Assembly (NCBI GenBank): GCA_023247085.1
Contig: JAHFHC010000002.1
Span: 35,683-99,682, forward strand
DNA: 64,000 nt
Source of the DNA: Microcaldota archaeon
GTDB lineage: Archaea > Micrarchaeota > Micrarchaeia > Norongarragalinales > UBA8480
Reading direction: 5' to 3'
The stretch's first letter is position 1, and each line of letters begins with the position of its first letter. Shown here one piece after another: positions 26,184 through 57,473 of the stretch. Under the pieces are notes generated by a model, which was not told the DNA's origin, did not search any database, and saw only the letters and a program-made list of their open reading frames with translations. A program made the position numbers and the translations under genes.

Positions 26184-26253
26184 TTGTAAACCCTACACCT
26201 TTTTATTAACGAAAAAGCGGGCTCGGTGGGATTCGAACCCACGACCCTCTGGT

Positions 26254-26276
26254 TTCTTCCCTCTAGAGAATAGAGT
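26254..26276 (-). other. Anticodon-loop intron (37/38) of tRNA-Lys
   Basis: A short 23-nt intron follows A37 of the CTTTTA loop half. It contains CTCT/AGAG self-complementarity, enough to help form a bulge-helix-bulge with the exon ends. This is the canonical archaeal position. Confidence 0.82.
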
Positions 26277-26298
26277 TAAAAGCCAGATGCTCTAGCCA

Positions 26299-26354
26299 TT
26301 TCAGGAACAAAGAAAAACACGGTTGCGATAATCGCTATCATGCTTCTTTATTCT
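26299..26354 (-). other. D-loop intron of tRNA-Lys
   Basis: These 56 nt interrupt the D-loop (AGCT / TGGCTA). The intron contains AAAGAA near its 5' side, TTTTTCTTT near its 3' side and an inner GCGAT/ATCGC hairpin. It lacks the exact double-hairpin design of the other large introns, though it reuses the same purine/pyrimidine words. Junctions were placed by restoring a standard D-loop and may be off by 1-2 nt. Confidence 0.8.
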
Positions 26355-26539
26355 AGCTGAGCTACAAGCCCACGTTAGTTTTTCGGACTGAATCAAAATA
26401 TAAACTTGCACTTCGCCCACTCATACTTAATAATCTTGGCGAAATGTAAGGCTATAACAAAGCAGCATTAATTCGGGTGCTTAACTGCTTTGTTTTCTGC
26501 TTTGTTATATAAACCTGCGTGGTTTTGTATTTGGGTAAT

Positions 26540-26923
26540 ATGCCAATTGCAGTTGTGTTAGATACGAATTTCCTCTTATTGCCTTTTCAGCGTAAGCTAG
26601 ATCTAGAAGGGGAAGTTGAACGATTATTAGAAACCCCGCACTTCTACGTGGTACTTGGCCAGTGCCTTGACGAATTACGCGAAATGGGGTCAAAACAACG
26701 CAAATTCTCTCCAGCCAGCAGAGCAGCTTTAGCCTTAATAGCAAATAAAAAATTTGTAGTTGAACGCGGCTTTCCGGGTCCGCCAGACGATGCAATCCTA
26801 AAATATTGCATTGCAAAAAATGCAATTATGTGCACTGCGGACGCTGCATTGCGCGCCAAGGCTAAAAAAGCGCGAGTTAAGACGATTTATTTACGAGGCA
26901 AAAGCCATTTAGCACTAGCTTAG
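26540..26923 (+). CDS. PIN-domain nuclease, Fcf1/VapC9-like
   Basis: This 127-residue protein starts IAVVLDTNFLLLPFQ, where the Asp is the first PIN acidic residue. Others are in LGQCLDELREMG, PPDDAILKYC and CTADAALRAKAKK, giving the four-acid PIN centre. Single-domain PIN proteins of this type sit upstream of rpo7 in many archaea, so it is more likely an RNA-processing factor than a toxin. ATG 26540 is preferred to the TTG-type start further up. Confidence 0.85.
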   Translation: MPIAVVLDTNFLLLPFQRKLDLEGEVERLLETPHFYVVLGQCLDELREMGSKQRKFSPASRAALALIANKKFVVERGFPGPPDDAILKYCIAKNAIMCTADAALRAKAKKARVKTIYLRGKSHLALA

Positions 26924-26963
26924 CGTTTTTAAAAGATAACTCTATTATGTTTAAGGCGTTGTT

Positions 26964-27251
26964 ATGCCTCTATCAAAGTCACACGAAAATCACTTAGTTG
27001 TATTGGAAGCTGCCGGGGTTCCAAATCATGAGTTATTTAGACCTTATCCAAGAGTAACTGCTGCTTTACACGCATCAGTAACCGTTGATAGCGCTGCGCC
27101 TATTGCTGGCTTTGCTCATCAAATTGGCAGAAGAATAGGTGATATGCCTACAGCAAAACGCGATAAGTTATTAGCTTCAATTGAACGCCGTGCGCTTATA
27201 CGTCGCAAAGATACAACTCTTTACGATTTATTAGAGAAAGTTAGCGCTTAG
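26964..27251 (+). CDS. Small hypothetical protein
   Basis: This 95-residue protein is predicted mainly helical, with an Arg/Lys-rich second half (RDKLLASIERRALIRRKDTTLYDLL). I do not recognise a family. It lies between the PIN gene and rpo7 in an otherwise conserved archaeal gene order and is preceded by AAGGCG and a reasonable ATG. Confidence 0.55.
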   Translation: MPLSKSHENHLVVLEAAGVPNHELFRPYPRVTAALHASVTVDSAAPIAGFAHQIGRRIGDMPTAKRDKLLASIERRALIRRKDTTLYDLLEKVSA

Positions 27252-27336
27252 TCATTTTATTTGGTTTTTTATGTATCAAAGCGTTTTTTAATAAGGACTC
27301 TCCTATTTTTTTACTTATTTTAAGAGGTTTACATGT

Positions 27337-27852
27337 ATGTATCGATTAGTAACTTTCAAAGAAGTAGTTAGAATCCCGCCAAACCATTTTGGAAAAAAAG
27401 TGTCAAAAGGCGCCCTAGATTTGCTTAGAGAGCAATACGAGCGAACAGTTTCCAAACAACATGGCATTGTAATTAGCTTGCACGATGCAAGAATAAAGTC
27501 AACTGGCAAAGTGATTCACGGCGATGGAGCTGTATTTTGCGACGTTGAATTTGATGCATTAGTTTTTACTCCAGTTGCAAACGAAGTTGTTGAAGGTCGG
27601 GTATCTGAAATAGTCGAATTTGGTGCATTTGTGCGGCTTGGACCAATCGATGGCTTAGTGCACGTTTCACAAATAGCAAACGATTACTTTTCATACGATA
27701 AAAGAGTAGATGCCCTCGTTGGCAAAAATTCAAAGAAATCCCTTAAAAAAGGAGAATTAGTTCGCGGTAAAATTGCAACAATCAGTTTGAAAGACACGAT
27801 TCCCAACAGTAAAATCGCTTTGACGATGCGCACTGAAGGGCTAAATAAGTGA
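27337..27852 (+). CDS. rpoE1: RNA polymerase subunit Rpo7 (E')
   Basis: This 171-residue protein is the large half of the archaeal RNA polymerase stalk (RPB7 homolog). The N-terminal tip domain starts MYRLVTFKEVVRIPP; the S1 RNA-binding domain has VVEGRVSEIVEFGAFVRLGP and DGLVHVSQI. GAGG precedes the start. It is followed 7 bases later by spt4, the usual archaeal order. Confidence 0.96.
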   Translation: MYRLVTFKEVVRIPPNHFGKKVSKGALDLLREQYERTVSKQHGIVISLHDARIKSTGKVIHGDGAVFCDVEFDALVFTPVANEVVEGRVSEIVEFGAFVRLGPIDGLVHVSQIANDYFSYDKRVDALVGKNSKKSLKKGELVRGKIATISLKDTIPNSKIALTMRTEGLNK

Positions 27853-27859
27853 TGTAGAA

Positions 27860-28048
27860 ATGATGGAAAAAGCATGTAAACAATGTAGGCTAATAGTCGA
27901 AGGACCAATTTGTCCACTGTGTAGTTCAGGTGATCACTTAACCAAAACTTGGGAGGGTCACATTTTCATCGTGAATCCAGAAGGTTCAGAAGTAGCAACT
28001 GCGATTGGCGCCAAAACACCAGGCAGATACGCGCTTAAAATAAAATAA
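27860..28048 (+). CDS. spt4: Transcription elongation factor Spt4 (RpoE'')
   Basis: This 62-residue zinc protein partners with Spt5. The zinc ligands are CKQC and CPLC, followed by KTWEGHIFIVNPEGSEVA and a C-terminal GRYALKIK strand, all typical of archaeal Spt4. The second codon is also ATG, so the start is uncertain by one residue. Confidence 0.95.
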   Translation: MMEKACKQCRLIVEGPICPLCSSGDHLTKTWEGHIFIVNPEGSEVATAIGAKTPGRYALKIK

Positions 28049-28100
28049 ATAGAAATAATACAAATACTAAAAAATTTAAAAGAAGTGAGTGTCGAAAATC

Positions 28101-28397
28101 ATGAAATTAAAAATCCTTTCAAAGAAAAACAACGTGTTGTTCAACCGAACTGAAGTAACTGCCTCGGCAACTGAATTTGAGTCAACCCCTTCGCGCAAAG
28201 AATTGCTTGGAGCTATGGCAACTGAATTAAAGTGTGAGGCAGGTGCATTAGTTCTAGAGCAGATTCACCAGCCGTTTGGCTCTAAAAGCGTTGCAATAAA
28301 TGCAAAAGTATATGATTCTCCAGATGCAGCTGCAAAAGCTGAACCAAAGTTTAAGTTTGAACGCGGTCAAGCAAAAGTACAGCCTAAACCGAGTTAG
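28101..28397 (+). CDS. rps24e: Ribosomal protein eS24
   Basis: This 98-residue protein starts MKLKILSKKNNVLFNRTEV and contains TPSRKELLGAMATELKCE and HQPFGSKSVAINAKVYDS, the eS24 signature. A GTG at 28089 would add four residues, but the ATG at 28101 matches family length. It is followed by rps27ae in the normal order. Confidence 0.95.
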   Translation: MKLKILSKKNNVLFNRTEVTASATEFESTPSRKELLGAMATELKCEAGALVLEQIHQPFGSKSVAINAKVYDSPDAAAKAEPKFKFERGQAKVQPKPS

Positions 28398-28430
28398 AGT
28401 AAAAAGGTAAATTGAGGTAAATTGAAAATT

Positions 28431-28568
28431 ATGGCAAAAGACGCTAAGAAAAAACCAAAAGCATATGTTGTCGGCAAAAACTGTCCAAAATGCGGGCCAG
28501 GCAACAAACTAGCTGGTCATAAAGATCGATTTGGCTGCGGCAAATGCGGTTACTACGAACGCAAATAG
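28431..28568 (+). CDS. rps27ae: Ribosomal protein eS27-like zinc protein (S27Ae/eS31)
   Basis: This 45-residue gene is shorter than most gene finders report. It starts [17 protein letters not shown] and has the four zinc cysteines in [10 protein letters not shown] and [10 protein letters not shown]. Size, basic N-terminus and location after rps24e identify archaeal S27Ae, which is the non-ubiquitin half of the eukaryotic fusion. It ends with TAG at 28566-28568. Confidence 0.94.
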
Positions 28569-28651
28569 GATTACAATTCGCTATGGGGTTTATAGTGTTA
28601 TAAACTCGCCGTGGCTTTGCTAAATAAACCCGAATAGTTTCTATTAATTAC

Positions 28652-29188
28652 ATGGCCGTACTTGAAGCGCTGCTTTTTTACTTTTTACTCATAGTTGCCA
28701 CGCTGTTAATTGCCAAGAGAAAAACTTGGATTCAAACACTAAATTACTTAGGGCTACAAACAAAGAAACCGAACGTAATGCAAATAATGCGCAATGCGGC
28801 GATTCTAGTATTCATCATATTCATCAGCCTTACCGTTCTTTCAATTATATTATCGCTTGTGATTGTGGATGACTCGCAAAAAGTGTCTGCTATAATTTCA
28901 ACTCTTTCTTTGCCAGCGATTTTAGTTGCAGTAACAATCGGTCCATTTGCAGAAGAATTATTCTTCAGGGGATGGTTACAAAAAAATATTGGCGTAGTTC
29001 TCTCAGCACTTATTTTTGCAGGCCTTCACTTTTCATTTGGTTCAATTGCAGAAATATTTGGTGCACTTGTAGCCGGTTTAGTAATTGGCTATTGGGTAAA
29101 ATACCGGGATTCAAACCTCTGGCCAGCTATAATAGCCCACGCGGTTTACAATGCAATTAGCATTTTGCTAGTACTGGTGATAAAATGA
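28652..29188 (+). CDS. CPBP-family intramembrane metalloprotease
   Basis: This 178-residue multi-pass membrane protein has the three family motifs: EELFFRGWLQ (EExxxR), FAGLHFSFG (FxxxH) and IIAHAVYNAI (HxxxN-like). The CAAX-protease/bacteriocin-processing family cleaves within membranes or processes prenylated substrates; the substrate here is unknown. Its last codon overlaps the kae1 start (ATGA). Confidence 0.9.
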   Translation: MAVLEALLFYFLLIVATLLIAKRKTWIQTLNYLGLQTKKPNVMQIMRNAAILVFIIFISLTVLSIILSLVIVDDSQKVSAIISTLSLPAILVAVTIGPFAEELFFRGWLQKNIGVVLSALIFAGLHFSFGSIAEIFGALVAGLVIGYWVKYRDSNLWPAIIAHAVYNAISILLVLVIK

Positions 29189-30243
29189 TTGTACTAGGAA
29201 TTGAAAGCACAGCGCATACCTTTTCAGTTGCAATTGTACAGAAAAGCAAGGGACTCAGCAAAACAAGCAAAGCCACAAAGCGCGCTAAAACTAAACGCCA
29301 ATTGAGTTCGATCGAGGTTCTTGCCAATGCTTCAGATAAATACGCATCTACTCTTGAAGGTTACATTCCGCGCAAATTAGCTGATCATCATGCCGAAGCA
29401 TTTCCAAAACTATTGCAACAAGCTCTATCTGATTCAAGCATTTCTTTAAGCGAAATAGATGCAATTGCGTTTTCTCAAGGAAGTGGAATTGGGCACTGTC
29501 TTCACGTTGGATACGTGGCTGCAAAAACACTTTCCACTATGCTAAAAATACCGCTTGTGCCAGTTAGCCACAGCATCGGCCACATTGAAATCGGGCGAGA
29601 ATTCAACTGCGAAACCAATGACCCGCTCGTAGTTTACGTATCTGGAGGAAACACGCAAATTCTCGGCCTTGATAAAAAAAATTCGAAGTATCATGTATAC
29701 GGTGAAACAAGTGACATTGGAATTGGCAATTTCCTCGACGTACTTGGAAGAAAATTGGAGCTAAAGCCATCAGATGCAGTTGGAGTTGTGAATGCAGCGC
29801 AACTAGCGAGTAAATATATTGAAATGCCTTACACGATTCGCGGAATGAACCTAGCTTTTTCAGGTCTCTTAACGTACATTGAAAAAAAACTTATTCCACA
29901 AATCGAAACAAAAAAATTTACAAAAGAAGAAATTGCGTTTTCAAGCCAAGAAACTGCCTTTGCAATGTTATGCGAAGCGGTTGAACGCGCCTTGTGCCAC
30001 ACCAACAAAAAAGAAATCCTCTTATGTGGTGGAAATGCCCGCAACGCACGCTTGCAAGAAATGCTAAAAGAAATTTGCAGAGAACACAACGTCCACTTCG
30101 CTTGCACTTCTTTTGAATACTCCGGCGACCAAGCTGCAATGATTGGCTTAACTGGAATAAAAATGCTTGAATCAAAATGCCTTCCAAAATATGAGGCTCC
30201 AGTGCAGCGTTTGCGTACTGATTTAACACACGTTTGTTGGTGA
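29185..30243 (+). CDS. kae1: tRNA threonylcarbamoyl transferase Kae1 (TsaD/KEOPS)
   Basis: This 352-residue subunit transfers the threonylcarbamoyl group to A37 of ANN-reading tRNAs. It starts MIVLGIESTAHTFSVAIV; metal/nucleotide residues are in DHHAEAFPKLL, YVSGGNTQIL and SGDQAAMIGL. A Lys/Thr/Ser-rich insertion of roughly 20 residues (SKGLSKTSKATKRAKTKR) near residue 25 is not part of the usual fold. It is translationally coupled to the CPBP gene and followed by Sua5 and Bud32. tRNA-Lys and tRNA-Arg(UCU) of this window are expected substrates. Confidence 0.96.
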   Translation: MIVLGIESTAHTFSVAIVQKSKGLSKTSKATKRAKTKRQLSSIEVLANASDKYASTLEGYIPRKLADHHAEAFPKLLQQALSDSSISLSEIDAIAFSQGSGIGHCLHVGYVAAKTLSTMLKIPLVPVSHSIGHIEIGREFNCETNDPLVVYVSGGNTQILGLDKKNSKYHVYGETSDIGIGNFLDVLGRKLELKPSDAVGVVNAAQLASKYIEMPYTIRGMNLAFSGLLTYIEKKLIPQIETKKFTKEEIAFSSQETAFAMLCEAVERALCHTNKKEILLCGGNARNARLQEMLKEICREHNVHFACTSFEYSGDQAAMIGLTGIKMLESKCLPKYEAPVQRLRTDLTHVCW

Positions 30244-30387
30244 ATTATTGACCTCAATTTGTCGGTGCTTAGCTGGGAACCTTTTTATTTCTTTTTTTCC
30301 CATTCTTATTTACCCAAAGAAGCAAAATCGTAATTTAGACAACTAGCGTTTAAGTTTTAGAAGACGCGGTGTAGGTGAAAAAAACGT

Positions 30388-31035
30388 ATGAAAACTAAGC
30401 TCTATCAGTTTATTTTAAAAGAACGCGAAAAAACAGCGAAAGTACTTGAAAACCTTGCCAATCTCTTGCGAAATGGCGGGGTAGCAGTTATCCCAACTGA
30501 AACCTGTTATTCACTTGCAATAGATGCTACAAACGACGAAGCCGCACAGAAATTAAACGCCTTAGGTGTAAAACCCGGTTTAACCAATCCAATAATTGTA
30601 AGTGACTTGCGTATGGCTAACGAATACACTTTGATAAATCCCTTAGCTGAAAAAATATCGCATTCATTTATGCCTGGTCCAGTTACATTGGTTGTTGACT
30701 TACTTCCAGAAACTAAACTCTCCAAAAACGTGTTCACAGATGGAGCATCCTTTAGAATTTCAAGCAACGTGTTTACACGCGCACTTGCAAGTGAATTAGA
30801 AAAACCTATAACCGTGTCTATATTGAGTGATTCGCCACCAATTTACAAATTTAAAGACCTCTACGATACGTTCAACACGAAACTAGACGCGATCGTAAGT
30901 TCAGGAGACTTGCCACAAGTAATGCCATCGACTGTAGTAGACGTCAGGTCACCTGTTCCACACCTGGTGCGCCAAGGGCCAGTTCCATTCGACGAAATAA
31001 TGAACTTAGTTGCTAAAACCACTGTAGAAGCCTAA
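30388..31035 (+). CDS. sua5: Threonylcarbamoyl-AMP synthase (Sua5/YrdC domain)
   Basis: This 215-residue single-domain protein makes threonylcarbamoyl-AMP from Thr, bicarbonate and ATP. YrdC features are VAVIPTETCYSLAIDATN, FMPGPVTLVVD, FRISSNVFTRALA and STVVDVR. The C-terminal Sua5 domain is absent. GGTGA lies before the ATG. It stands between kae1 and bud32, so the three steps of t6A synthesis are clustered. Confidence 0.92.
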   Translation: MKTKLYQFILKEREKTAKVLENLANLLRNGGVAVIPTETCYSLAIDATNDEAAQKLNALGVKPGLTNPIIVSDLRMANEYTLINPLAEKISHSFMPGPVTLVVDLLPETKLSKNVFTDGASFRISSNVFTRALASELEKPITVSILSDSPPIYKFKDLYDTFNTKLDAIVSSGDLPQVMPSTVVDVRSPVPHLVRQGPVPFDEIMNLVAKTTVEA

Positions 31036-31113
31036 AAGCACTTCGACACTATTATGATCCGCAATGCTAAAGACATATTCTTATGTATGTGTGGCGTGTA
31101 GATAACTCTAGTT

Positions 31114-31731
31114 ATGCACAAAACACCGAACAACCAAGGCGCAGAAGCCGTTGTAACTAACTGCATTTACTTTAACACTCCAGCCATATCGAAGCGCAGG
31201 CTTCCAAAACGCTATCGCGTGCATTCCCTTGACTCAAAACTACGTTTAGAACGTACTAAAATCGAAGCAAGGATAATGCACCGCGCAAAAGCAACTGGGA
31301 CAAATTGCCCGCTTGTATTATCAGTTGACCTTGAACGATGCGAATTAATCGAAACGCGATTAAACGGAGTTAAACTAGTTGACTACCTACAAGATAAAAA
31401 AAATCAAAAAAATGCCAAACGCATTTTAGCAGATGCCGGCACTCAACTTGCAAAACTTCACCTTGCAAACATAAGCCACGGGGATTCAACTACTTCAAAT
31501 TTCATGACTGACGGCAAAAGTGTTTTCATATTTGATTTTGGCTTATCGCAATTCAATGCAACTGACGAAGAACGCGCCATTGACTTACTCTTATTTTTTA
31601 AGTCCGTATCTGAACTTCAATTCAAGTATTTCATCAAAGGATACGCGGCACAATACGGTGAAAAACAAACCAAGCAATTAATATCAAAGATTCGTGAAAT
31701 AGAGTCAAGAGCAAGATACGTGGAGCGTTAA
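31114..31731 (+). CDS. bud32: KEOPS kinase/ATPase Bud32
   Basis: This 205-residue small RIO-like kinase belongs to KEOPS. GAEAVVTNC is the N-terminal signature, KRRLPKRYRVHSLDSKLR the following basic block, SHGDSTTSNFM the catalytic loop and FIFDFGLSQ the metal-binding DFG. It is encoded separately from Kae1, unlike the fused form in many methanogens. Eight bases separate it from the EamA gene. Confidence 0.94.
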   Translation: MHKTPNNQGAEAVVTNCIYFNTPAISKRRLPKRYRVHSLDSKLRLERTKIEARIMHRAKATGTNCPLVLSVDLERCELIETRLNGVKLVDYLQDKKNQKNAKRILADAGTQLAKLHLANISHGDSTTSNFMTDGKSVFIFDFGLSQFNATDEERAIDLLLFFKSVSELQFKYFIKGYAAQYGEKQTKQLISKIREIESRARYVER

Positions 31732-31739
31732 ACACTTCA

Positions 31740-32615
31740 ATGGAATGGTATTTTTTTGCAATAGCCTCTGCAATTGTAACTGCAATTATAGGCGTAACTG
31801 AAAAAAAGATTTTACAACACGAGCATTCGCTTACTTTTTCAGTTACACATGCGCTAATAGCTTTAGTTATTTCACTCCCCTTTTTTATCTACTTTGATTT
31901 TTCAACCATTACGCCGCAACTCATAATTGCAATATACTTTGCTATGCTTTTAGCTGCAGCTGCGTTTTGGCTTACTGCAAAAGGAGTCAAACATTTAGAA
32001 CTATCTGTTTCCAGCCCGCTGACTCTACTTAACTTCATTTTCTTGCCTTTTCTAGCTTTTCTATTCGTAGGAGAACGCTTATCTTTCAAACAAATAGCAG
32101 GCGTTTGCCTCATACTGTTGGGAGTACTAGCACTAGAGCTAATTGTTCACCGCGGCAAGTTCTTTCCTCACATTAAAACAAAAGGAAAAGAACAATATTT
32201 TCTATTTATGCTAATTGCAGGCTTATTCTATGCAGTTACCGCAATTCTTGATAAGCATCTACTTGCCGCAGTGAATCCATTTACTTATTTATTGCTTGCG
32301 CATTTCTTCATTGCCCTTAATAGCTTATTGTTTTTCGCGTTTTTCGACAAGGAATTCAAGCGAGATTTGAAAAAAATCTTTTCGCAAGACTTAAAAACCA
32401 CGATTTTTGTAGCCTTCTTATCCATTATACAAAGGTTAACTTTTGCATTTGCAGCTTCAGCGGCTTACATAAGCATAGCAGTTGCAATTAAGCGCCTTAG
32501 CATACTATTCTCCGCGCTATTAGCTGGCAAACTATTTCACGAAAAAAACATAGTTGAAAAACTAGCGGTTTCAATACTAATGCTAATCGGCGCATTATTA
32601 CTAGTGTGGCCGTAG
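31740..32615 (+). CDS. EamA/DMT-family transporter
   Basis: This 291-residue protein has about ten hydrophobic segments in two repeats, beginning MEWYFFAIASAIVTAIIGV. The EamA-like repeat ending is recognisable in FLAFLFVGERLSFKQIAGVCLILLG and again in AGKLFHEKNIVEKLAVSILM. Such proteins export metabolites. The substrate is not predictable, and its position after bud32 may only reflect shared transcription. Confidence 0.88.
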   Translation: MEWYFFAIASAIVTAIIGVTEKKILQHEHSLTFSVTHALIALVISLPFFIYFDFSTITPQLIIAIYFAMLLAAAAFWLTAKGVKHLELSVSSPLTLLNFIFLPFLAFLFVGERLSFKQIAGVCLILLGVLALELIVHRGKFFPHIKTKGKEQYFLFMLIAGLFYAVTAILDKHLLAAVNPFTYLLLAHFFIALNSLLFFAFFDKEFKRDLKKIFSQDLKTTIFVAFLSIIQRLTFAFAASAAYISIAVAIKRLSILFSALLAGKLFHEKNIVEKLAVSILMLIGALLLVWP

Positions 32616-32707
32616 AACTGTTCAAAAACCGCGCTAGCGCTAAAGTTGTTTTTAGAAAAAATTGAAAAAAGGAAGAAAACTCAAAAGAGTAGGGAGTTGG
32701 AAAATTC

Positions 32708-32821
32708 CTAAAGTTCTCCGACTCTTCGTTTCTGCTTGCGCTTCATGCGCTTGCGGCGTTTCTTTACCCATTTCCAGCGCATTCTGCCAGATTTCTTCCA
32801 TTTTCGCGGTCTAGAACCCAT
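32708..32821 (-). CDS. rpl41e: Ribosomal protein eL41
   Basis: A 37-residue frame runs from ATG (32819-32821) to TAG (32708-32710). It encodes [19 protein letters not shown] followed by [14 protein letters not shown] and ends VGEL. The Arg/Lys/Trp composition and the [16 protein letters not shown] core are those of eL41, the smallest ribosomal protein. The internal Met at residue 14 would give the more usual 24-25-residue length. It is too short for routine gene calling. It lies alone between converging neighbours. Confidence 0.85.
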
Positions 32822-32890
32822 AAAGTATTGAACCCATTAATTTGAACTAAATTTGCTTAAAACTGAGTGTATTTATTGTGCTGCCAAAGT

Positions 32891-33340
32891 TTATAAGTTG
32901 AATTCCTTGGCTATTTTCTTCATTGTCTGTACTTGGTTTGAGAATTTAAACAACTTCACTGCTTGCTTCCACGTGACCCACTTAAAAGCGTCATGTTCTT
33001 GAACGGGGTTATGCTTAAGTGAAACGCGACGCGTTTTACTCTTGACAAGCCAGCCAGTGAAACGCGCGTGCGTGTAACTGTGCTTTTTCTCGTATACTTT
33101 TCCAAACTTGAACTTTACAACTACTTTGCTTTTGCGAATAACGCTATAGTCTTTTTTTCGAAGGCCAACTTCTTCCCACAATTCTTCAGCTAACGCTTCA
33201 CGTTCCGTGTGTCCATCCAAGCCGCCTTTTGGCAACTCCCAACCACGCCAATTAAGTACGCGATGTAATACTAAAACATCCCCTTTCTTATCAAGCACAA
33301 CTGCGAAGATTCCACGACGAGTTTTAGATTTTTTTACCAT
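32891..33340 (-). CDS. Nudix hydrolase
   Basis: This 149-residue protein carries a Nudix box, GGLDGHTEREALAEELWEEVGL, around residues 40-61; the usual Arg of the REUxEE core is replaced by Glu. WELPKGG precedes it as in Ap4A-type Nudix enzymes, and the HDAFKWVTWKQA ending also fits that group. It may hydrolyse dinucleoside polyphosphates or related nucleotides. It diverges from the HAD gene across 230 bases. Confidence 0.87.
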   Translation of the reverse strand: MVKKSKTRRGIFAVVLDKKGDVLVLHRVLNWRGWELPKGGLDGHTEREALAEELWEEVGLRKKDYSVIRKSKVVVKFKFGKVYEKKHSYTHARFTGWLVKSKTRRVSLKHNPVQEHDAFKWVTWKQAVKLFKFSNQVQTMKKIAKEFNL

Positions 33341-33392
33341 GAAATACGTAACGATAAATTTTTATTGTTTTGTTCAATTAATTATAGTATAT

Positions 33393-33441
33393 GTCAAAAG
33401 TCAACACTTTAAATTTGTTGCTAAGTTGCTCTACTTTTGAC
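33393..33441. repeat. Inverted repeat in the Nudix/HAD intergenic region
   Basis: GTCAAAAGT at 33393-33401 is exactly complementary to ACTTTTGAC at 33433-33441, with an A/T-rich 31-base spacer. It lies between two divergent genes, where a shared regulator site or a structured leader could sit. The rest of this 230-base intergenic stretch is A/T-rich without a recognised feature. Confidence 0.4.
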
Positions 33442-33506
33442 TTTGCTAATTTTTGGCATTTTTCATCCTAGCATCAGTTAGTTGAAACTTTGTCTGGTTG
33501 TTTGCT

Positions 33507-35144: not shown

Positions 35145-35147
35145 CCA

Positions 35148-46748: not shown

Positions 46749-46771
46749 AAAAGAAAGTAGCCCCGAGCGGA

Positions 46772-46832
46772 TTTTCGTTTCTCACAGGTTTTCTTTTCCG
46801 TGAGGCTTTTCTTTTATCAAAAGAAAAGGTTC
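46772..46832 (-). other. T-loop intron (59/60) of tRNA-Gln, hairpin family
   Basis: A 61-nt insertion within TTCGAA|T. Hairpin I: CTTTTCTTTT and AAAAGAAAAG, 46806-46828, with a 3-nt loop. Hairpin II: CTCAC plus GG paired with CC plus GTGAG, 46781-46804, with loop AAAAGAAAA on the RNA strand. It is the clearest example of the family. Confidence 0.85.
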
Positions 46833-46876
46833 TTCGAACCGCTGTCAATGGATTCAGAGTCCACTATCCTTGACCA

Positions 46877-46940
46877 TTGTCTAAAATTCTTTCTTTTACA
46901 CTGAAAGGCTTTTCTTTCTTTTAAGAAAGAAAAGGGTTTC
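46877..46940 (-). other. D-loop intron of tRNA-Gln, hairpin family
   Basis: A 64-nt insertion between the two halves of the D-loop. Hairpin I is CTTTTCTTTC with GAAAGAAAAG at 46909-46934 (10 bp). A second GAAAG-containing stem CTTTC/GAAAG with an AAAA loop follows, a variant of the shared design. Confidence 0.8.
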
Positions 46941-47060
46941 CTAGACGACGGGGCTATTTAGTATGTTTTTGGCCTGTTCAGTTTTAGAAGCTTTTCTCTA
47001 TAGGGTTATTTTCTTTGGTTTAGTTTTTTTGCGATTCTAAAAAGCGAAACCCTTATTAAT

Positions 47061-47088: not shown

Positions 47089-47093
47089 TAATT

Positions 47094-49748: not shown

Positions 49749-51410
49749 TCATTTCTTGTACATTTCTTCAACTATTGCGCCAAAAGCGGGCCTTGTTATG
49801 AGAATGCCCACTAGTATTCCGATTATTGTAGCTAGTGCGAATCCGCTTATTTCCACTATTCCGGACAATAATAGCGGCATCATTGCAACTATTGCGACTC
49901 CGGCTGTTGTGAATATAATACTAAATGCTTTGCCTATTTTTTCGCGTAACCCGTATTCGGTTTCCTCTTCATCTTGTTTTTTCTTTGCAAGTACCTCGTC
50001 AGTGATTATCAGCTGGTCATCTACTCCTGTTCCGATAAGGGAAATGATTCCAGCCATTGCAGCTAAGTCTAAATTGCCAATTCTGCCAAGCACTGCTGTT
50101 AAAATCAGGATTTCAATTGAGTTTATCAACACAATCGGTATGCTTAGTTTGTAATCTTTATAGCGTAAAATAATGAGTAACGCAACAATTGCTATTGCTA
50201 ATAAAGTTGCAATTGCGCTGTACGTTAGGAATTGCCTGCCTAGGGCGGGTTCAATTGCAAATGAGCTGCCTACAAGCGCGCTTACTGGTAGCTTGCCTCC
50301 GCTGATAACACTTTTCAATTGCTTTATTTGTGTTAAAGCATAAGATTCTTGTTCTTTACTAGTTGCGCCAAGCGCTGTTCCTGTAATTGAATAAAATTGT
50401 GAAATGCTTCCACTTGCTAGCCCTTCTGATAATTGCGGGGCTGAAAGTAAGCCAATAGCGCGCCATTCGCTTATCTCGCCACGTATTGTTAACGGAACGA
50501 TATCAGCGTCTGTTTTAACAATTACTTTCTTAGTAGTGCTCGAATTAATTGTGTCAGTTGCCCCATTTGCACCTGCGGCGGCTTCAAATCCCGCGGTTTG
50601 TAATGTGGATTGTATTTTTGAAAGTGTGGATTGACTTACAATAACTGTTGTCTTATTACGTAACACTGCAGAAACCGCTGCTGTGTTGTTGCTAGTGGCG
50701 CTTGTGAGTTCATCGACAAAAATAAGCGCGATATCATTGCCTTCTTTTTTCAAAGCATCTGTTGCTTGCTTTTGGCTAAGTGCGTTGAGTTCACTTCTTT
50801 GTAAAATAATCGCTGCATTTTCTGGTCGGTCTAGAAACATGTATACTGGGTAACGTGCTTTTCCGCGGCCAGCTTCTGAAAATGCCTCAGCCCCCTGTCG
50901 AGTAACTGAAAAACTAAGTGACCAGCTTGGCGTACCCAGGCTTGCAGGTGTCCCTTCTCCATTTGGCCCACCAACAGCCACTACGCTTTCTCCACTAACC
51001 GCTTGTTTGCCATCGATAATCCCCTCGAACCGGCCTTGTTCTTGCAAGATTTTCTTTACATTAGCAATTGCAGATTCATCCGCATTTGGCACTTCTACAA
51101 GCACTTCTTTTGACCCAACTGGCCGTACAATTGCTTGTGACAAGCCATAACTATTAATGCGGGTTTTAAGCGTCTCTACAATTGAATCCATCGTATTAGC
51201 GTCGACATTTTTCTCCAATGAGACTGGAATGCGTACTCCTCCTATGAATTCAATGCCGAGTTTCGCGTCAAAAGTATACGGGTTAGCGTCAGCAAGAAAT
51301 AGCGCAAAAAATGACAATAGCACAGCTAAAATGAGTATTTGAATTTTGTAATTTTCAAGCAACTTTCTATAATTCATTTTGAATTCAATCTTCCTTTTAT
51401 TTTTTGTCAT
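49749..51410 (-). CDS. secD: Protein-export membrane protein SecD
   Basis: This 553-residue RND-type protein works with SecF to drive export. The N-terminal membrane helix is followed by the P1 domain (FDAKLGIEFIGGVRIPVSL), a large outer domain and five C-terminal helices. GLLSAPQLSEGLASGSISQF and GMIS-type LAAMAGIISLIGTGVDDQLIITDE are diagnostic. The ATG at 51377 (MNYRKLL) is the more typical start. It is transcribed after secF. Confidence 0.94.
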   Translation of the reverse strand: MTKNKRKIEFKMNYRKLLENYKIQILILAVLLSFFALFLADANPYTFDAKLGIEFIGGVRIPVSLEKNVDANTMDSIVETLKTRINSYGLSQAIVRPVGSKEVLVEVPNADESAIANVKKILQEQGRFEGIIDGKQAVSGESVVAVGGPNGEGTPASLGTPSWSLSFSVTRQGAEAFSEAGRGKARYPVYMFLDRPENAAIILQRSELNALSQKQATDALKKEGNDIALIFVDELTSATSNNTAAVSAVLRNKTTVIVSQSTLSKIQSTLQTAGFEAAAGANGATDTINSSTTKKVIVKTDADIVPLTIRGEISEWRAIGLLSAPQLSEGLASGSISQFYSITGTALGATSKEQESYALTQIKQLKSVISGGKLPVSALVGSSFAIEPALGRQFLTYSAIATLLAIAIVALLIILRYKDYKLSIPIVLINSIEILILTAVLGRIGNLDLAAMAGIISLIGTGVDDQLIITDEVLAKKKQDEEETEYGLREKIGKAFSIIFTTAGVAIVAMMPLLLSGIVEISGFALATIIGILVGILITRPAFGAIVEEMYKK

Positions 51411-51430
51411 TTATCTTTACTTTTCTTCAC

Positions 51431-52549
51431 TTATGTCATTTGTTTGGATTTCTTCTCAGCGTGATTCAATATCAACACTGCGTTTAAACACCACGTTGCA
51501 ACAAAGTCAACACAACTTCCAATAACCGCAACTATGCCTAATTCAAAGTAAACTGGAATTTGTAAATATAGTCCAGCAAGTGCAAGCACTGTAAATGCGC
51601 CTATTGAAGTTAAGTTCATCAACGCTCCAGTTTTAAATGCGCCAAATGCCCGCTTTGCTGGGGTATCTTCCTTGCGTTTTAACACGCGCATAGTTAACAT
51701 GACGTCAGTGTCAAGGGAAAACCCAATTAACATCAATAACCCTGCAATTGACGCTAGAGAAAGCGGAATACCAAATAAACTCATTATGCCAATTGTGATC
51801 ACGATGTCGTTCACTGCCCCGCTTATAACCGCTAAACTTGGAATAAGTGACCTAAACACTATGAAAACAACTATTGCTGACAGTAAAAATGAAAATAATA
51901 GAATCTCTTGTGACTTAACTAAGAAAAATTTGCTTAATGCTGGCCCAACTTCCCTAAACGAATAGCTCTTAATTGATATTTTACTTGAAATAGCAGAAAT
52001 TATCGCTTTTCTATAATCATCTTGACTAGCTCCAAATTTCTCAACAGCTAACTTAACTGCTACGTGGCCTTCGTTTCCAGCATATTCACTTTCAAGCGCC
52101 TTCAGTATATCCCGGCTAATTGAAACTACTTCTGCGTTCAATTCAGCTTGCTTCTCTAAATATGCCTTCACTTCGCCTGTATTTGTCGCTGTAGTTGCAT
52201 TAACTTCTAATTCGCGCAATTGAGTGTCTTTAATTTGTAATGCCTTTACTTTTTCTTCCAAGCCAACGAGTTTTTCATTTGACTCAACTTCAATTTCAAC
52301 CCCTGTTCCGCCTGGACTGGCAAAAGTGCGAATACTAGAAATTCGTGCAACTTTCTCAACAGCCGACTTTAGCTCAGCAATATCGACATGGTCATTTGTC
52401 TGTACACTGAGCAACACGCCTCCGCGTAAGTCAACTCCCTGCGGAATCCCTCTTACAAAAATAATTGCAAGTGCAGCTAAAAACAATACAATTGGTATAA
52501 CCGCAAGCCGCTTGTAGTTCTTCGACTCATACACATTTGGTAAATCCAT
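51431..52549 (-). CDS. secF: Protein-export membrane protein SecF
   Basis: The 372-residue partner of SecD. The first membrane helix is followed by GVDLRGGVLLSVQTND, a long outer region with a coiled-coil-like insertion (LVGLEEKVKALQIKDTQLRE), then helices including GAVNDIVITIGIMSLFGIPL and GLLMLIGFSLDTDVMLTMRVL. The archaeal order secF-secD with a 20-base gap is seen. Confidence 0.95.
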   Translation of the reverse strand: MDLPNVYESKNYKRLAVIPIVLFLAALAIIFVRGIPQGVDLRGGVLLSVQTNDHVDIAELKSAVEKVARISSIRTFASPGGTGVEIEVESNEKLVGLEEKVKALQIKDTQLRELEVNATTATNTGEVKAYLEKQAELNAEVVSISRDILKALESEYAGNEGHVAVKLAVEKFGASQDDYRKAIISAISSKISIKSYSFREVGPALSKFFLVKSQEILLFSFLLSAIVVFIVFRSLIPSLAVISGAVNDIVITIGIMSLFGIPLSLASIAGLLMLIGFSLDTDVMLTMRVLKRKEDTPAKRAFGAFKTGALMNLTSIGAFTVLALAGLYLQIPVYFELGIVAVIGSCVDFVATWCLNAVLILNHAEKKSKQMT

Positions 52550-52728
52550 AAATCTTTAACCGCTAAAACTTTAGAAAAAGCGCTATAATGCTTGTCCACT
52601 AAAAATTGAGCACGCTATGTATTTTAACCTTTTTGACTTATCCGGACAGAAAGTATAAAACTCGAACTGTTCCAAAAACCATAGCACTGCAGGGATAGCA
52701 AAGTTTGGTCAAATGCGCAGGACTTAAG

Positions 52729-52795
52729 CGAACCCTTTTCTTTTTTTTGAAAAAAGAAAAGTCTTCGAGCCCAAAAGAAAAAATGGTTCTCCGAA
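52729..52795 (+). other. Anticodon-loop intron of tRNA-Leu, hairpin family
   Basis: Hairpin I at 52735-52761: CTTTTCTTTTTT with AAAAAAGAAAAG (12 bp, 3-nt loop). Hairpin II at 52767-52789: GAGCC with GGTTC, whose loop contains AAAAGAAAAAA. Confidence 0.85.
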
Positions 52796-52826
52796 ATCCT
52801 GTCCCGTATGGGTTCGCCGGTTCAAA

Positions 52827-52890
52827 TCGGCTTTTCTTTTTGTAAAAAGAAAAGTCCGACGGAAAAGAAAAACTTCTTTCTTTTTGGAAA
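52827..52890 (+). other. T-loop intron of tRNA-Leu, hairpin family
   Basis: A 64-nt insertion at TTCAAA|T. Hairpin I at 52831-52854: CTTTTCTTTT with AAAAGAAAAG. A second tract GGAAAAGAAAAAC follows; here it is able to pair with TTTCTTTT (52877-52884) instead of being a free loop. Confidence 0.85.
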
Positions 52891-52960
52891 TCCGGCTCCC
52901 TGCACTTTTTTTCTAATTGAAAGTAACGTTTGTTAACCTAGATGTACTGTTTATAGTTAT

Positions 52961-53569
52961 ATGGAACCAAGTGTCCCTAAGTGGCTTGACCGGTCATTTA
53001 CTTTTTCTCCAGTTAGAAATTTCTTTGGCGCCTATTATAAAGTAGCGCCAGGTGCCTGGAGCCTCGCAGATGGAAAGCATAAATTCGCCGGCCATACCGT
53101 AGTAAAAGATAAAAAAATGGTTATTTTTGCTCCTACAAAGCTCAAGCGTGCCACGCACTTAGTTGCTTTTCCTGCTCCAGAACATTTTGAAGTGTTAAAA
53201 AATGCAGCAAAATTGCTAAGAGAAGGTGGGCCAGCTGAGCTTAATCCTGGTGCATTGGGTACGGTGGAGCTACGCTGCCCAATTGAGAGAAAAATTGCGC
53301 TGCTTAGTTTTGTGCAATCTCATTACTCAAGCAAAGTGATGCGCCGCAAGTGGATTAGTCGCTATGGTGGGTGGCGTACGCGTGCATTAAAACTTGCCAT
53401 TCAAATGGCTCACCGCGAGAATCGTACTTTGATAATTCGAGAGGGAAAAAAAGTCAGGCTAACGCCGAAATTAATAACGGATTTGGAAAGGGCATGCGAG
53501 GCACTGGGAGTAAAGCTTATCCGCGACTTTTCAGAAATGCGCGTTCCGCCTAAGCGCTTAACTTCGTAA
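52961..53569 (+). CDS. Hypothetical protein
   Basis: This 202-residue protein has a beta-rich first half (residues 15-75, WSLADGKHKFAGHTVV) and a basic helical second half with many Arg/Lys (RKWISRYGGWRTRALKLAIQ). The basic half could bind nucleic acid. I do not recognise a family. It lies downstream of tRNA-Leu and 62 bases before the kinase-like gene. Confidence 0.6.
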   Translation: MEPSVPKWLDRSFTFSPVRNFFGAYYKVAPGAWSLADGKHKFAGHTVVKDKKMVIFAPTKLKRATHLVAFPAPEHFEVLKNAAKLLREGGPAELNPGALGTVELRCPIERKIALLSFVQSHYSSKVMRRKWISRYGGWRTRALKLAIQMAHRENRTLIIREGKKVRLTPKLITDLERACEALGVKLIRDFSEMRVPPKRLTS

Positions 53570-53631
53570 CGCGTGATTAAACTACGCCGAGACGTTTTTA
53601 TTCCTTTTTTTAGTTAACCTTATGATACCTA

Positions 53632-54222
53632 ATGCCAACTTTACCTAAACGAAAACTTGGGAAACGCATAGGAGGAGCAAGCGAAGGAGATGTTTATCTC
53701 TCTGGTCAAGACGTAACCAAAATGCTGCACCCGAAGTTGTCTCAAGGGGTTAATCGCAATGTTTCAATTGCAGAACAAAAAATGCGGTTTTACTCCCATA
53801 AAATCGGACACTTGCTTTTTCCACACCATGTTTTAGATGTACATTCTGTTGTAACTCGGCCGAGTGGTATTTTTATTTCAAGCAAATTTAGACCGGGCGT
53901 TCGAGTTCCTCCCAAATACTTGCCAGAAGCACACCGCGTTCACACGACTTTATTAGACGCTGGCATAAGCTGTGATGCAGGTTCAAAAGAACCAAATTAC
54001 GTATTAAGTGGCGGTAAAATATTGTTTTATGAAGTGACTTCGCTAGAGCCGAATAAAGTCTTAAAACACTTAGAAAGTCGCAGTGATTTAGATCAGCATA
54101 AGCGTGAACGAATTAAATTTTTACTTTTACAATACCGCCGCAATTGGAAAGACTATTGCGAACAAGCTAGAAAAAGATGGGAAGCAAAAAGCCTCGAAAG
54201 AATGGAAAGAACAAAGCGTTAA
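53632..54222 (+). CDS. Degenerate protein-kinase-like protein
   Basis: The protein has 196 residues. LGKRIGGASEGDVYLSGQDV followed by TKML resembles the kinase glycine loop and beta-3 Lys. LLDAGISCDAGSKEPNYVLS then GGKILFYEV resembles a shortened catalytic loop with conserved Asn and a DFG segment whose Asp is replaced by Glu. The very small size and altered residues suggest a pseudokinase or minimal phosphotransferase. The assignment is by eye. Confidence 0.5.
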   Translation: MPTLPKRKLGKRIGGASEGDVYLSGQDVTKMLHPKLSQGVNRNVSIAEQKMRFYSHKIGHLLFPHHVLDVHSVVTRPSGIFISSKFRPGVRVPPKYLPEAHRVHTTLLDAGISCDAGSKEPNYVLSGGKILFYEVTSLEPNKVLKHLESRSDLDQHKRERIKFLLLQYRRNWKDYCEQARKRWEAKSLERMERTKR

Positions 54223-54275
54223 AATCCAGTGTTTCCTTAAACTCTTAACGATTTCTACATTGTGAATTTATTCAA

Positions 54276-55565
54276 ATGCGAATACTGTCCAATCAAGTTA
54301 AAAAATACAACGGCAAAAAAGTAGCTTTAGCTGGCTGGGTACAAACCGTTCGCGACGTTGGCTCACTTGTTTTCATAATTATGCGCGACCGTGCAGGTTT
54401 ACTTCAATTGATTTGCAAGGGCGAAGCCGCTGAAACCGCGCGCAAGTTAAGCCTAGAAAGTTCAATCGAAGTCACTGGAATTGCAAAGGTTGACGAAAAA
54501 ATAAAACTCGGTGGAGTCGAAATACAAGTTGAAACCCTGGTGCTTGTTGCTGGTTCGCTTCCAAAACTTCCAGTTGACATCGCTGGAAAAACAGAAACTA
54601 ATTTTGAACACCGTTTTGACCACCGCGTTATTGATTTGCGCAGGGAAGAACCGCAAGCAATATTTGCAGTACAATCTACATTGTGCAATGCATTTCGCGA
54701 AATTTTAAACAAAGATGGATTCACTGAGATTCACACGCCAAAAATAATCGCAACTGGAACAGAAGGCGGCACTTCACTATTTCCGGTTAAATATTTTGAA
54801 AAACAAGCGTATCTTGCCCAAAGCCCCCAGTTCTACAAGCAAATGCTTGTTGGAAGCGGGTTTGAAAGAGTTTTTGAAATCGCACCAGTATTCCGCGCTG
54901 AAGAACACAACACTCCGTGGCACTTGAATGAGTATGTTTCACTAGATTTTGAAATGGGTTTTGTACGCGATGAACTACAAGTTATAAAGCAATCCGAAAA
55001 AGTGCTTAAATACATGCTAAAAAAAGTAATTGAAAAAAACGAGAAGCAACTTAAATTGTTTAACATTAACCTCAAAATTCCAAAGAAAATCCCCGTGCTA
55101 AAATACTGGGACTTGCCAAAAATCTTTGAATCTATTGGCAAAGAATTTGCGCCAATGTCAGATTTATCACGCGATCACGAAGCAACTCTTTGCACTTACG
55201 CAAGTGAAAAGTTTGACTCTGAATTTGTATTTGTCAACAATTACCCTATTGAACTACGACCAGCTTACACTCAACCACACACAAAGAAAAAATACTCGCG
55301 CGGTTTTGACTTGCTATTCAGCGGAGTTGAAATTGTTTCAGGAGGACAACGCGTTCACGACCCAGCGGTACTTGAAAAACAACTTACAGCAAAAGGATTT
55401 AACCCAGCTGACTTCGAGTTTTACCTAGAAACTTTCAGATACGGCATGCCGCCCCACGGGGGACAAGCATTTGGACTTGAACGCTTAACTGCTAGATTAC
55501 TAAAACTCAACAACGTGCGCGAAGCAACCTTCTTCCCACGAGATAGAAACAGAGTAACCCCCTAG
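54276..55565 (+). CDS. aspS: Aspartyl-tRNA synthetase, archaeal type
   Basis: This 429-residue class IIb enzyme probably also charges tRNA-Asn in organisms lacking AsnRS. The OB-fold anticodon domain is [20 protein letters not shown]; motif 1-2 appear in [21 protein letters not shown] and [21 protein letters not shown]; motif 3 is [20 protein letters not shown]. Whether it is discriminating cannot be decided from what is seen here. Confidence 0.96.
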
Positions 55566-55597
55566 CAAACGTGTATGTTTGCGTATTAACTGTACTT

Positions 55598-56653
55598 TTA
55601 CTTCTTCGGCATTTTTACTTTTACAACTAATGCTGTGCTGTTATCGGGTCCACCGCGTTTATTGGCTGTTTTAATTAAATACTTGATTAAGTCAGTATGC
55701 GTGATTTTCCCGCGCGCGTATTTAACGAGCGCATTTTTAATTTCTCTATCAGTTACGCGCTTGTTTATCCCATCGCTGCATAAAAAGAAAACGTCGCCGT
55801 TCTTTGCTTGAACTGTTTTATACTCTGGCTCAATTCCGTTTTCTCCACCAACCGCTTGCAGTAACTGGTTTTGTACTCCTGGTAAACTGTGGTCAGTTGT
55901 TAATTGTGACAATTTATGCGCTAGTATGCCTTTACGTAAGAGATAGACCCGCGTGTCTCCAACGTGCACAACGTGTGCCTTTCCGTCTTTTTCAATATGC
56001 AGTGCCGTTAAAGTGGTTCCCATCATTAACTTGTGCTTAGCTTCATCGGTATAATAAACTCCTTTTCGCTCCTCTGCCTTTATCCCTCTCTTAGTTTCCT
56101 CATTTTTTTCAACTACTGCTTGATGCGCTTTATGTATACCCTCAAGAAGTGTGCTTGGTTCTTTTGTATCAAAATGATTCGCAAGAGCAGCTACTGCTGT
56201 ACTAGCCGCTTTATAGCCATTAGCGTGTCCGCCCATTCCATCTGCAACTACGAACAACTGCTTTTCTGGGTGTATTAAACAAACGTCGTCATTACTTGAA
56301 CGCTTCATTCCCTTGTGAGTAGCCCCTGTGCATTCAAAGCTAATCCGTACTGGGTTAATATAATCGTCAAGCGCGTCTTTTGATGCAGTGTGCGTAAGTA
56401 AATGTTCAACTGCACTGCGATGTTTTCCAGCTGAATGCAGTTCAAGTGCTTTACTTATAACGTGTTTTACAATTAGGTCTCGCTGTGGTTCAAGTGCAGA
56501 AAATTGTCTTCCAATTGTCTGTAGCTCGTGGGTGCTTACTATTTTTCTATCGTGAAGTTCTTTTAACCCCGAACGTAACTTAACAGGTAACCAGCCCCAT
56601 CGTGCCATACCTATTCCGTCGTAGAACTCCCGTTCTCCAGATGCGTTCACCAT
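55598..56653 (-). CDS. PP2C-type Ser/Thr phosphatase with a novel N-terminal domain
   Basis: The protein has 351 residues. The PPM phosphatase core (about 105-351) has NDDVCLIHPEKQLFVVADGM and GGHANGYKAAS with metal Asp residues, VVHVGDTRVYLLRKG, QLTTDHSLPGVQ, FFLCSDGINKRVTD and RGGPDNSTALVVKV. Residues 1-105 are helical and begin EFYDGIGMARWGWLPVK, which aligns with the N-terminal domain of the two membrane proteins at 13-15.5 kb. It dephosphorylates protein Ser/Thr; partners unknown. Confidence 0.9.
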   Translation of the reverse strand: MVNASGEREFYDGIGMARWGWLPVKLRSGLKELHDRKIVSTHELQTIGRQFSALEPQRDLIVKHVISKALELHSAGKHRSAVEHLLTHTASKDALDDYINPVRISFECTGATHKGMKRSSNDDVCLIHPEKQLFVVADGMGGHANGYKAASTAVAALANHFDTKEPSTLLEGIHKAHQAVVEKNEETKRGIKAEERKGVYYTDEAKHKLMMGTTLTALHIEKDGKAHVVHVGDTRVYLLRKGILAHKLSQLTTDHSLPGVQNQLLQAVGGENGIEPEYKTVQAKNGDVFFLCSDGINKRVTDREIKNALVKYARGKITHTDLIKYLIKTANKRGGPDNSTALVVKVKMPKK

Positions 56654-56725
56654 GTATTGTATAGGCTAGTGTTTTATAGTTTAAAAAACGAGGCGGGCAA
56701 ATGAGGGTGCGTGCTAGATAAAAAA

Positions 56726-56864
56726 TGGGGCTGCTGAGATTTGAACTCAGATCATCAGCTTTTTATGAGCCGTCGAGGTTTTCTTTTTTCCTCGAGGTTT
56801 TTTCTTTTTCAAAAGAAAAAAGCTCGCCCGAAGCTGATAGCATACCAGGTTGGCCCACAGCCCC
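56726..56864 (-). tRNA. tRNA-Pro(CGG) with an anticodon-loop intron
   Basis: Acceptor GGGGCTG/CAGCCCC, discriminator A, anticodon stem TCAGC/GCTGA with loop TTCGGG|A (anticodon CGG), T-stem CTGAG/CTCAG. One 66-nt intron at 37/38 is removed to leave 73 nt. The D-stem is weak, as in other archaeal tRNA-Pro. An Arg(UCG) reading with a shifted stem leaves too short a variable loop and is less likely. Confidence 0.87.
56761..56826 (-). other. Anticodon-loop intron of tRNA-Pro, hairpin family
   Basis: Hairpin I at 56798-56821: TTTTTTCTTT with AAAGAAAAAA (10 bp, 4-nt loop). Hairpin II at 56774-56794: CGAGG with CCTCG, loop AAAAAAGAAAA on the RNA strand. Confidence 0.85.
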
Positions 56865-56941
56865 AAGGTTAATGCGGTGCTTGATTCTTTTGGCGCAAAC
56901 GCTTTTTAATTAACTTTGTTTAGTGTTTCCTAGATCCGAAA

Positions 56942-57286
56942 ATGTCGATGCGTTTACTTAAACCCAAAATACTCCACATAGTTGACAAGCTTACTGGCAA
57001 GACACCTAAAACTTTATTAGATTACGGCGATTCTGCGTATGCACTTGAACGCCACGCGTCTGGCGTTGGTGGCGCAATTACAAAGCTATTTTCTGACCAC
57101 GAAATTAAAGTGCTTTTACTATGGGCTATTATCTCCCCTTCGGCTGCACTAGCTTATTTAATTTGGAAAAAATACCCAGAATTTAGGCTATTAGCCGTTC
57201 CTTTATTTGGCATTAGTATCTTTCAATTTATTGGCCAATGGGGTGGCCTCTACTGGGCGCTTCAACGAATGGGCATAGTCCCGTAA
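56942..57286 (+). CDS. Small membrane protein of unknown function
   Basis: This 114-residue protein starts MSMRLLKPKILHIVDKLTGK; two hydrophobic helices (LWAIISPSAALAYLIW and LLAVPLFGISIFQFIGQWGG) in the second half follow a basic first half. No motif recognised. It lies between two tRNA genes on the opposite strand. Confidence 0.6.
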   Translation: MSMRLLKPKILHIVDKLTGKTPKTLLDYGDSAYALERHASGVGGAITKLFSDHEIKVLLLWAIISPSAALAYLIWKKYPEFRLLAVPLFGISIFQFIGQWGGLYWALQRMGIVP

Positions 57287-57332
57287 AAAACAAGTCTGCT
57301 TATTTTTGCTGCTAGCGTTTTACTAACCGTAG

Positions 57333-57473
57333 CGGGCGAGGTGGGATTTGAACCCACGACCTTCAGCTTTCTTACGCCTTTTCTTTGGCGCCACACCTGG
57401 CACCTTTCTTTTAGAAAAAGAAAGGGGCATGGTTTAGAAGGCTGTCGCTCTATCCAAGCTGAGCTACAAGCCC
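57333..57473 (-). tRNA. tRNA-Arg(UCU) with an anticodon-loop intron and acceptor-stem mismatches
   Basis: The order and lengths of all arms are standard: GGGCTTG, TA, GCTC/GAGC, ACAGC/GCTGA, loop CTTCTA|A (anticodon TCT), GTGGG/CCCAC, CTCGCCC, G. One 66-nt intron at 37/38 is removed to leave 75 nt. The acceptor has two adjacent non-pairs (U5-C68, U6-U67) and the anticodon stem an A27-A43 non-pair. The 5' exon equals that of tRNA-Lys. It may be a recombinant or need editing. Confidence 0.82.
57369..57434 (-). other. Anticodon-loop intron of tRNA-Arg, hairpin family
   Basis: Hairpin I at 57403-57425: CCTTTCTTTT with AAAAGAAAGG (10 bp, 3-nt loop). Hairpin II at 57375-57390: CGCC with GGCG, loop AAAGAAAA on the RNA strand. 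Confidence 0.85.

Follow-up and report, generated by a model that had tools for sequence, protein, structure and literature searches.

A mobile family of mirror-repeat elements in tRNA introns of a Microcaldota archaeon

How archaeal tRNA genes gain introns has been called unknown in a review (PMC4090602). In Thermoproteales, near-identical, recently gained introns with bulge-helix-bulge (BHB) splice structures occur across different tRNAs and positions (Fujishima et al. 2010, as summarised in PMC4090602). Class II intrastrand triplex or PIT elements (BoxC, TMECO; Holder et al. 2015, PMC4666352) are dispersed in many copies per genome and carry on one strand, in this order, a pyrimidine arm, a loop, a purine arm, a loop and a reverse-Hoogsteen purine strand. 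Here we describe a family of elements that was found in tRNA introns of a 64,000-nt stretch (the window; contig JAHFHC010000002.1, positions 35,683 to 99,682) of a Microcaldota archaeon (GCA_023247085.1) and that has this same strand order and dispersed copy number.

The PIT elements of that study are bacterial, G/C-rich and mostly intergenic, and the paper never mentions a tRNA or intron link (it does not contain the word tRNA), whereas the present element is A-rich, has a longer and often self-complementary linker and is concentrated in archaeal tRNA and rRNA genes. In contrast to the Thermoproteales introns as the review describes them, it has a mirror-repeat core, non-intron copies and empty sites with target duplication, and belongs to another phylum (Micrarchaeota). 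Like non-autonomous elements of the miniature inverted-repeat transposable element (MITE) type it is short, non-coding, present in many copies and associated with target duplications; unlike these, its duplications vary in length, fixed terminal inverted repeats are missing, no cognate transposase was found and the core is a triplex motif. With the substrates of the ARMAN-2 epsilon2 endonuclease the introns share the type of endonuclease (4fz2) and the non-canonical positions, but here they form one sequence-structure family. The parts are thus each of known kinds and their combination appears new in the literature searched, which covered neither most subscription journals nor any preprints and contained no prior report linking a triplex motif to tRNA introns.

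A shared design with a mirror-image purine strand

Apart from the two of tRNA-Lys, all tRNA introns in the window (six of eight) contain a 10-12-bp pyrimidine/purine hairpin (hairpin I; arms Pyr and Pur1) with a loop of 3-4 nt, followed after 8-16 nt by an A/G tract (Pur2). This confirms the hairpin and second tract that a first-pass annotation had reported for six of eight introns. The same annotation took the starting hairpin to be the same element in all six; its design is indeed common, but the arm sequence varies (Pro TTTTTTCTTTT, Arg CCTTTCTTTTT, Gln D-loop CTTTTCTTTCT).

A search for TTTCTTT-N(2-14)-AAAGAAA-N(6-24)-AAAGAAA, with the reversed pattern as control, detected 38 places in the own genome (G000) versus 3 for the control, whereas the bare 10-mer AAAAGAAAAG was not enriched (68 versus 69 reversed). 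Base composition therefore accounts for the 10-mer and not for the design, which answers the concern that the A/G tracts might reflect composition alone. A covariance model, the check originally suggested, had no consensus pairs when built on sequence alone from a MAFFT alignment because the arms differ in length; the gapped patterns took its place and showed the enrichment.

The relation between the two purine tracts is that of mirror images. The linker-side A-run of Pur1 equals the starting A-run of Pur2 in 89% of the own copies (36 distinct copies; 35% when permuted) and in 86% of those from relatives (n=101; 33% when permuted). Among 118 copies with an asymmetric Pur1, Pur2 fitted the mirror image better in 101 and a direct copy better in 2, with 15 ties (p 1e-27, which overstates independence because the copies are related, yet they span many genera and arm sequences). 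Examples are the copy at C9:6587 (contig:position, as throughout; Pur1 GAAAGAAAAAAA, Pur2 AAAAAAAGAAAG) and the Gln D-loop intron, where Pur1 AAGAAAGAAAAG has its mirror counterpart in AAAAGAAAG. Symmetry is kept in 10 of 11 own copies other than sense introns. A switch in which Pur2 displaces Pur1 by Watson-Crick pairing to the Pyr arm, as earlier proposed, needs a Pur2 that repeats Pur1 and is contradicted by the mirror arrangement, which pairs worse with the Pyr arm and fits an intrastrand triplex.

Since templated copying yields direct or inverted but not mirror repeats, the simplest explanation of the symmetry is that a structure with an antiparallel third strand has been selected. The order Pyr-Pur-Pur on one strand, with a third strand mirroring the purine arm, is that of class II intrastrand triplexes, and from its sequence the core would be predicted to form one. 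The strict limits of the ITxF database (loops 1-6 nt, stems 6-15 nt) leave the element out though the topology holds: stems fit and first loops mostly fit, but the linker that forms the second loop usually measures about 6-16 nt. This linker is often self-complementary (CGTCGACG, CATCGATG, CCCTAGGG, CGTTAACG). According to Semerad and Maher 1994 (as cited in PMC4666352), purine-motif triplexes do not form in RNA, and for this reason we infer that the constraint acts on DNA. A U.A-U RNA triplex was dismissed, as the sense strand has the wrong strand order.

Copies beyond the window and signs of movement

Element copies interrupt most tRNA genes of the own genome (892,562 bp in 36 contigs, 92% complete). 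Judged by eye, 27 of the 38 places are sense introns in tRNA or 16S genes, the 16S location being confirmed with Rfam; five are antisense within or beside tRNA genes (C28:322, C29:5339, C35:30900, C36:6164, C36:25696), four flank tRNA genes and two lie between protein genes (C26:3846, C16:13797). Compound introns at C29:5279-5383, C35:30900 and C28:322-526 hold two copies in opposite orientation, whose A- and T-tracts could pair mutually.

The pattern is enriched across the GTDB class, in 46 of 98 relatives (for example 54 versus 0 for the reversed pattern in G039, and 43 versus 0 in G009) and occupies tRNA introns, rRNA introns, tRNA flanks and some intergenic sites; several copies in G009 are introns of the 16S and 23S genes. 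Across the 98 genomes, the number of copies is inversely related to that of easily detected tRNAs (Spearman -0.52, p 4e-8, uncorrected for phylogeny). G075, G083, G091 and G095, in which very few tRNAs can be detected, have hardly any A/G-type copies or none, and a motif of different composition may be present in their introns. The tRNA genes of two relatives, G076 and G067, are intact, and copies are found there close to tRNA ends, mostly sense and 3', with 12 of 13 inspected copies in G076 and about half of those in G067 in or adjoining a tRNA gene. As most copies of these genomes stand beside tRNA genes, the element is not intrinsically an intron.

Copies inside or directly 3' of tRNA genes were also found in named archaea of other phyla (Diapherotrites, Aenigmatarchaeota, Altiarchaeota). 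Bacteria have copies with the same strand order but a different linker, and none of 11 bacterial loci searched with Rfam had a tRNA near the copy. Selenomonadaceae, Oscillospiraceae, Chitinophagales and Polaromonas are among the many bacteria with this order and the linker TAAC or TAGC. In many bacterial copies the bases just past Pur2 (GGCGA) complement the hairpin loop (e.g. GCTTCGCC), resembling an H-type pseudoknot.

Comparison with two relatives of the same genus (congeners G001 and G002) revealed signs of insertion. At C26:3846, an element of ~57 bp lies between 26-bp direct repeats (one mismatch) where the splicing endonuclease gene meets the gene that follows it; in G002, where the endonuclease domain is 99% identical, the repeated sequence is single and the element is missing, so that a filled site with direct repeats faces an empty one. 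The two genes separated by this insertion abut or overlap in G002, and the element thus sits at the gene of the enzyme that splices it. Two further introns, in the T arm at C27:25184 and in the T loop at C8:7081, are both missing in G001. A 53-nt core is identical between the tRNA-Arg anticodon intron of the window and the T-loop intron of another tRNA in G002, and congeners carry different cores at the orthologous sites of tRNA-Arg, Pro, Leu, Met and others. The Leu anticodon-loop site is occupied by a different core in G001 and the Pro site by a different element in G002; the core of the Gln T-loop intron is also present in G002.

Flanking repeats of at least 14 nt were found at 6 of 97 copies versus 3 of 578 controls. 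In the distant genus of G067, direct repeats of 11-39 bp flank 5 of 13 copies versus 3 of 156 mismatched flank pairs, with a near-constant 5' repeat boundary 7-9 nt from the core. Copies of G067, G064, G087 and G048 have in common a 3' tail of about 20 nt that follows Pur2 (roughly AACAGTATCGGATATTACT), which suggests a longer element in this genus. At C36:25642-25733, an inverted pair of elements is preceded by 17 nt copied from the beginning of the next tRNA; of the two elements, G002 has only one at this place. The first-pass annotation had proposed one family in unrelated tRNAs and several tRNA positions, spread by copying. Both proposals are supported, the second by the empty sites, the identical core in different tRNAs of two genomes and the direct-repeat flanks.

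Interrupted tRNA genes and their splicing

The window contains five interrupted tRNA genes carrying eight introns (Table 1), and tRNA is the sole Rfam family matched in it, with no match to group I or group II introns. ARAGORN called the Pro, Arg and Lys tRNAs once the introns were removed. For Gln it made no call and for Leu an unresolved one, and both tRNAs were assigned from their exons, which appeared complete when read by eye. ARAGORN also missed tRNAs detected by Rfam at other loci, and its silence was not taken as evidence of absence.

Table 1. Interrupted tRNA genes of the window and element parts within their introns (window positions)
Feature	Position	Strand	Details
tRNA-Lys(UUU)	26218-26371	(-)	introns 26300-26352 and 26253-26275, both without element; internal contrast
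tRNA-Gln(CUG)	46759-46955		introns in D loop and T loop
tRNA-Gln D-loop intron	46881-46940	(-)	hairpin I (Pyr/Pur1) 46909-46934; Pur2 about 46890-46897
tRNA-Gln T-loop intron	46772-46832	(-)	hairpin I 46806-46828; Pur2 46789-46797, in loop of hairpin II
tRNA-Leu(UAA)	52689-52904		introns in anticodon loop and T loop
tRNA-Leu anticodon-loop intron	52728-52795	(+)	hairpin I 52735-52761; Pur2 52773-52782
tRNA-Leu T-loop intron	52827-52890	(+)	hairpin I 52831-52854; Pur2 52863-52872
tRNA-Pro(CGG)	56726-56864		anticodon-loop intron
tRNA-Pro anticodon-loop intron	56761-56826	(-)	hairpin I 56798-56821; linker CCTCGAGG; Pur2 56779-56788
tRNA-Arg(UCU)	57333-57473		anticodon-loop intron
tRNA-Arg anticodon-loop intron	57368-57433	(-)	hairpin I 57403-57425; Pur2 57379-57386

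The splicing endonuclease of the genome is of the fused ARMAN-2 type and matches the tRNA intron endonuclease 4fz2 over 377 residues (E 6e-128). Enzymes of this type accept relaxed substrates, which can explain why introns are tolerated at unusual positions. Putative BHB helices were read by eye: UUCG (exon) with CGAA (intron) and 3-nt bulges in the Gln T loop, GUAA/UUAC in the 16S gene of G009 and ACCUG/CAGGU on C27 of the own genome; that of the Pro intron, judged in the same way, appears relaxed. The idea that target duplication at a palindromic TTCGAA automatically makes the BHB helix holds at T-loop sites and fails at the G009 16S and C27 sites, where the exon is matched at the intron end by its inverted complement; it is therefore not general.

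Weighing the explanations

We favour, with a probability of about 0.68, the explanation that the shared design is a tiny non-autonomous mobile DNA element which prefers tRNA and rRNA genes and becomes a BHB intron where an ARMAN-type endonuclease can splice it. Such an element would measure about 50-100 bp, with a core of Pyr arm, short loop, Pur1 arm, linker (about 8 nt) and Pur2. A single DNA strand could form a hairpin with an antiparallel third strand lying on its purine arm (A.A-T, G.G-C), and selection presumably acts on this single-stranded form, the triplex being the putative feature recognised by the mobilising machinery. The element would insert chiefly within or next to tRNA genes, but rRNA genes and, now and then, other places would also be hit, and about 8-39 bp of the target would be duplicated. 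A copy inside an RNA gene would survive, and be seen as an intron, if a BHB cleavable by the ARMAN-type (epsilon2) endonuclease is completed by its ends; at some sites the core would have been replaced by that of another family member.

Several observations speak against this explanation. Most copies inside RNA genes have sense orientation (about 27 of 32 in the own genome, by eye), as do 11 of 12 copies 3' of tRNA genes, a bias that a purely DNA-level element must explain by oriented insertion. A long target duplication is not seen at most true introns, so the mobility of the family is proven, not the route by which each intron arose. The own genome, at 92% completeness, revealed no Y1 transposase (IS200/IS605, REP/RAYT), no RVT_1 reverse transcriptase (absent in 11 of 12 element-bearing genomes) and no phage-type integrase domain, the last likewise missing in G001 and G077. 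The related TMECO motif gave no triplex signal in vivo in E. coli (PMC4666352). Mobilisation in trans by a Y1 enzyme is possible, and the variable duplication length argues against an integrase of fixed stagger. LAGLIDADG domains exist, but most matches sit in long open frames typical of inteins. An open reading frame of 221 aa with a LAGLIDADG-type domain (C16:11082-11747) lies just upstream of the tRNA at C16:11773 and downstream of an element-bearing tRNA, and may encode a free-standing homing endonuclease.

The sense bias speaks for a rival explanation, in which the hairpin and mirrored purine strand are selected in the transcript, be it for pre-tRNA folding, for how the excised intron or trailer is released or what becomes of it, or as a protein landing site, and copies spread by ordinary recombination. 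In RNA folding, hairpin I formed in all six introns (z -1.6 to -4.1), which fold better than shuffles. A stem of at least 3 bp flanks hairpin I in 76% of copies versus 30% of shuffled ones, and a second hairpin (linker/downstream stem of at least 3 bp) was found in 36% versus 18%. The GC-containing second hairpin of the first-pass annotation, with the tract in its loop, is thus real for a subset and not general to the family: Pur2 forms the loop in the Gln T-loop, Pro and Arg introns and weakly so in those of the Leu anticodon and Gln D loops, but pairs with a U-rich stretch downstream in the Leu T-loop intron. Neither the flanking stem nor hairpin II requires mirror symmetry, which is the strongest signal although RNA, according to the work cited in PMC4666352, does not form the triplexes it would serve. 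The symmetry is also kept by antisense and intergenic copies, and copies also lie between protein genes, as at C26:3846 and C16:13797. We therefore consider selection at the RNA level rather unlikely.

Integrases prefer tRNA genes, and some copies have duplicated 5' or 3' pieces of a tRNA next to them (C36 17 nt, C27 52 nt, G001 C32 12 and 17 nt). As has been suggested for Caldiarchaeum (PMC3293823), the copies could be what integrase-driven insertion of tRNA-targeting mobile elements left behind, in the form of short scars and duplicate tRNA fragments. This is improbable given the lack of integrase domains described above, repeats whose length varies between 8 and 52 bp and which also occur at a site without a tRNA (C26), and the presence of only the 50-100 bp element between them. 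Gene conversion might instead have carried ordinary BHB introns from one tRNA gene to another, with the motif as a passenger; the large-scale tRNA intron transposition in Thermoproteales, whose mechanism is unknown (review PMC4090602), is a precedent. This is still less credible because the core also occurs where there is no tRNA intron homology, namely 3' of intact tRNA genes, between protein genes and in rRNA. Chance A/G tracts of low complexity, suggested by the AT-rich genome and the unenriched 10-mer, are already refuted by the reversed-pattern and permutation controls.

The family itself is real, widespread and mobile. Only tentatively do we extend the mobile-element explanation to a DNA-level transposition system that moves class II triplex motifs into tRNA and rRNA genes across several archaeal phyla, might be the source of much archaeal tRNA intron gain and might share its structural principle with the bacterial PIT repeats. 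For tRNA intron gain the family supplies a defined unit that moves, sites found empty in one congener and filled in another, and a candidate recognition structure that can be tested, and the element is a concrete candidate for the movement of tRNA introns between genes. To the triplex repeats dispersed in bacteria, for which neither a function nor a way of spreading is known, it adds a relative whose mobility can be read from sequence.

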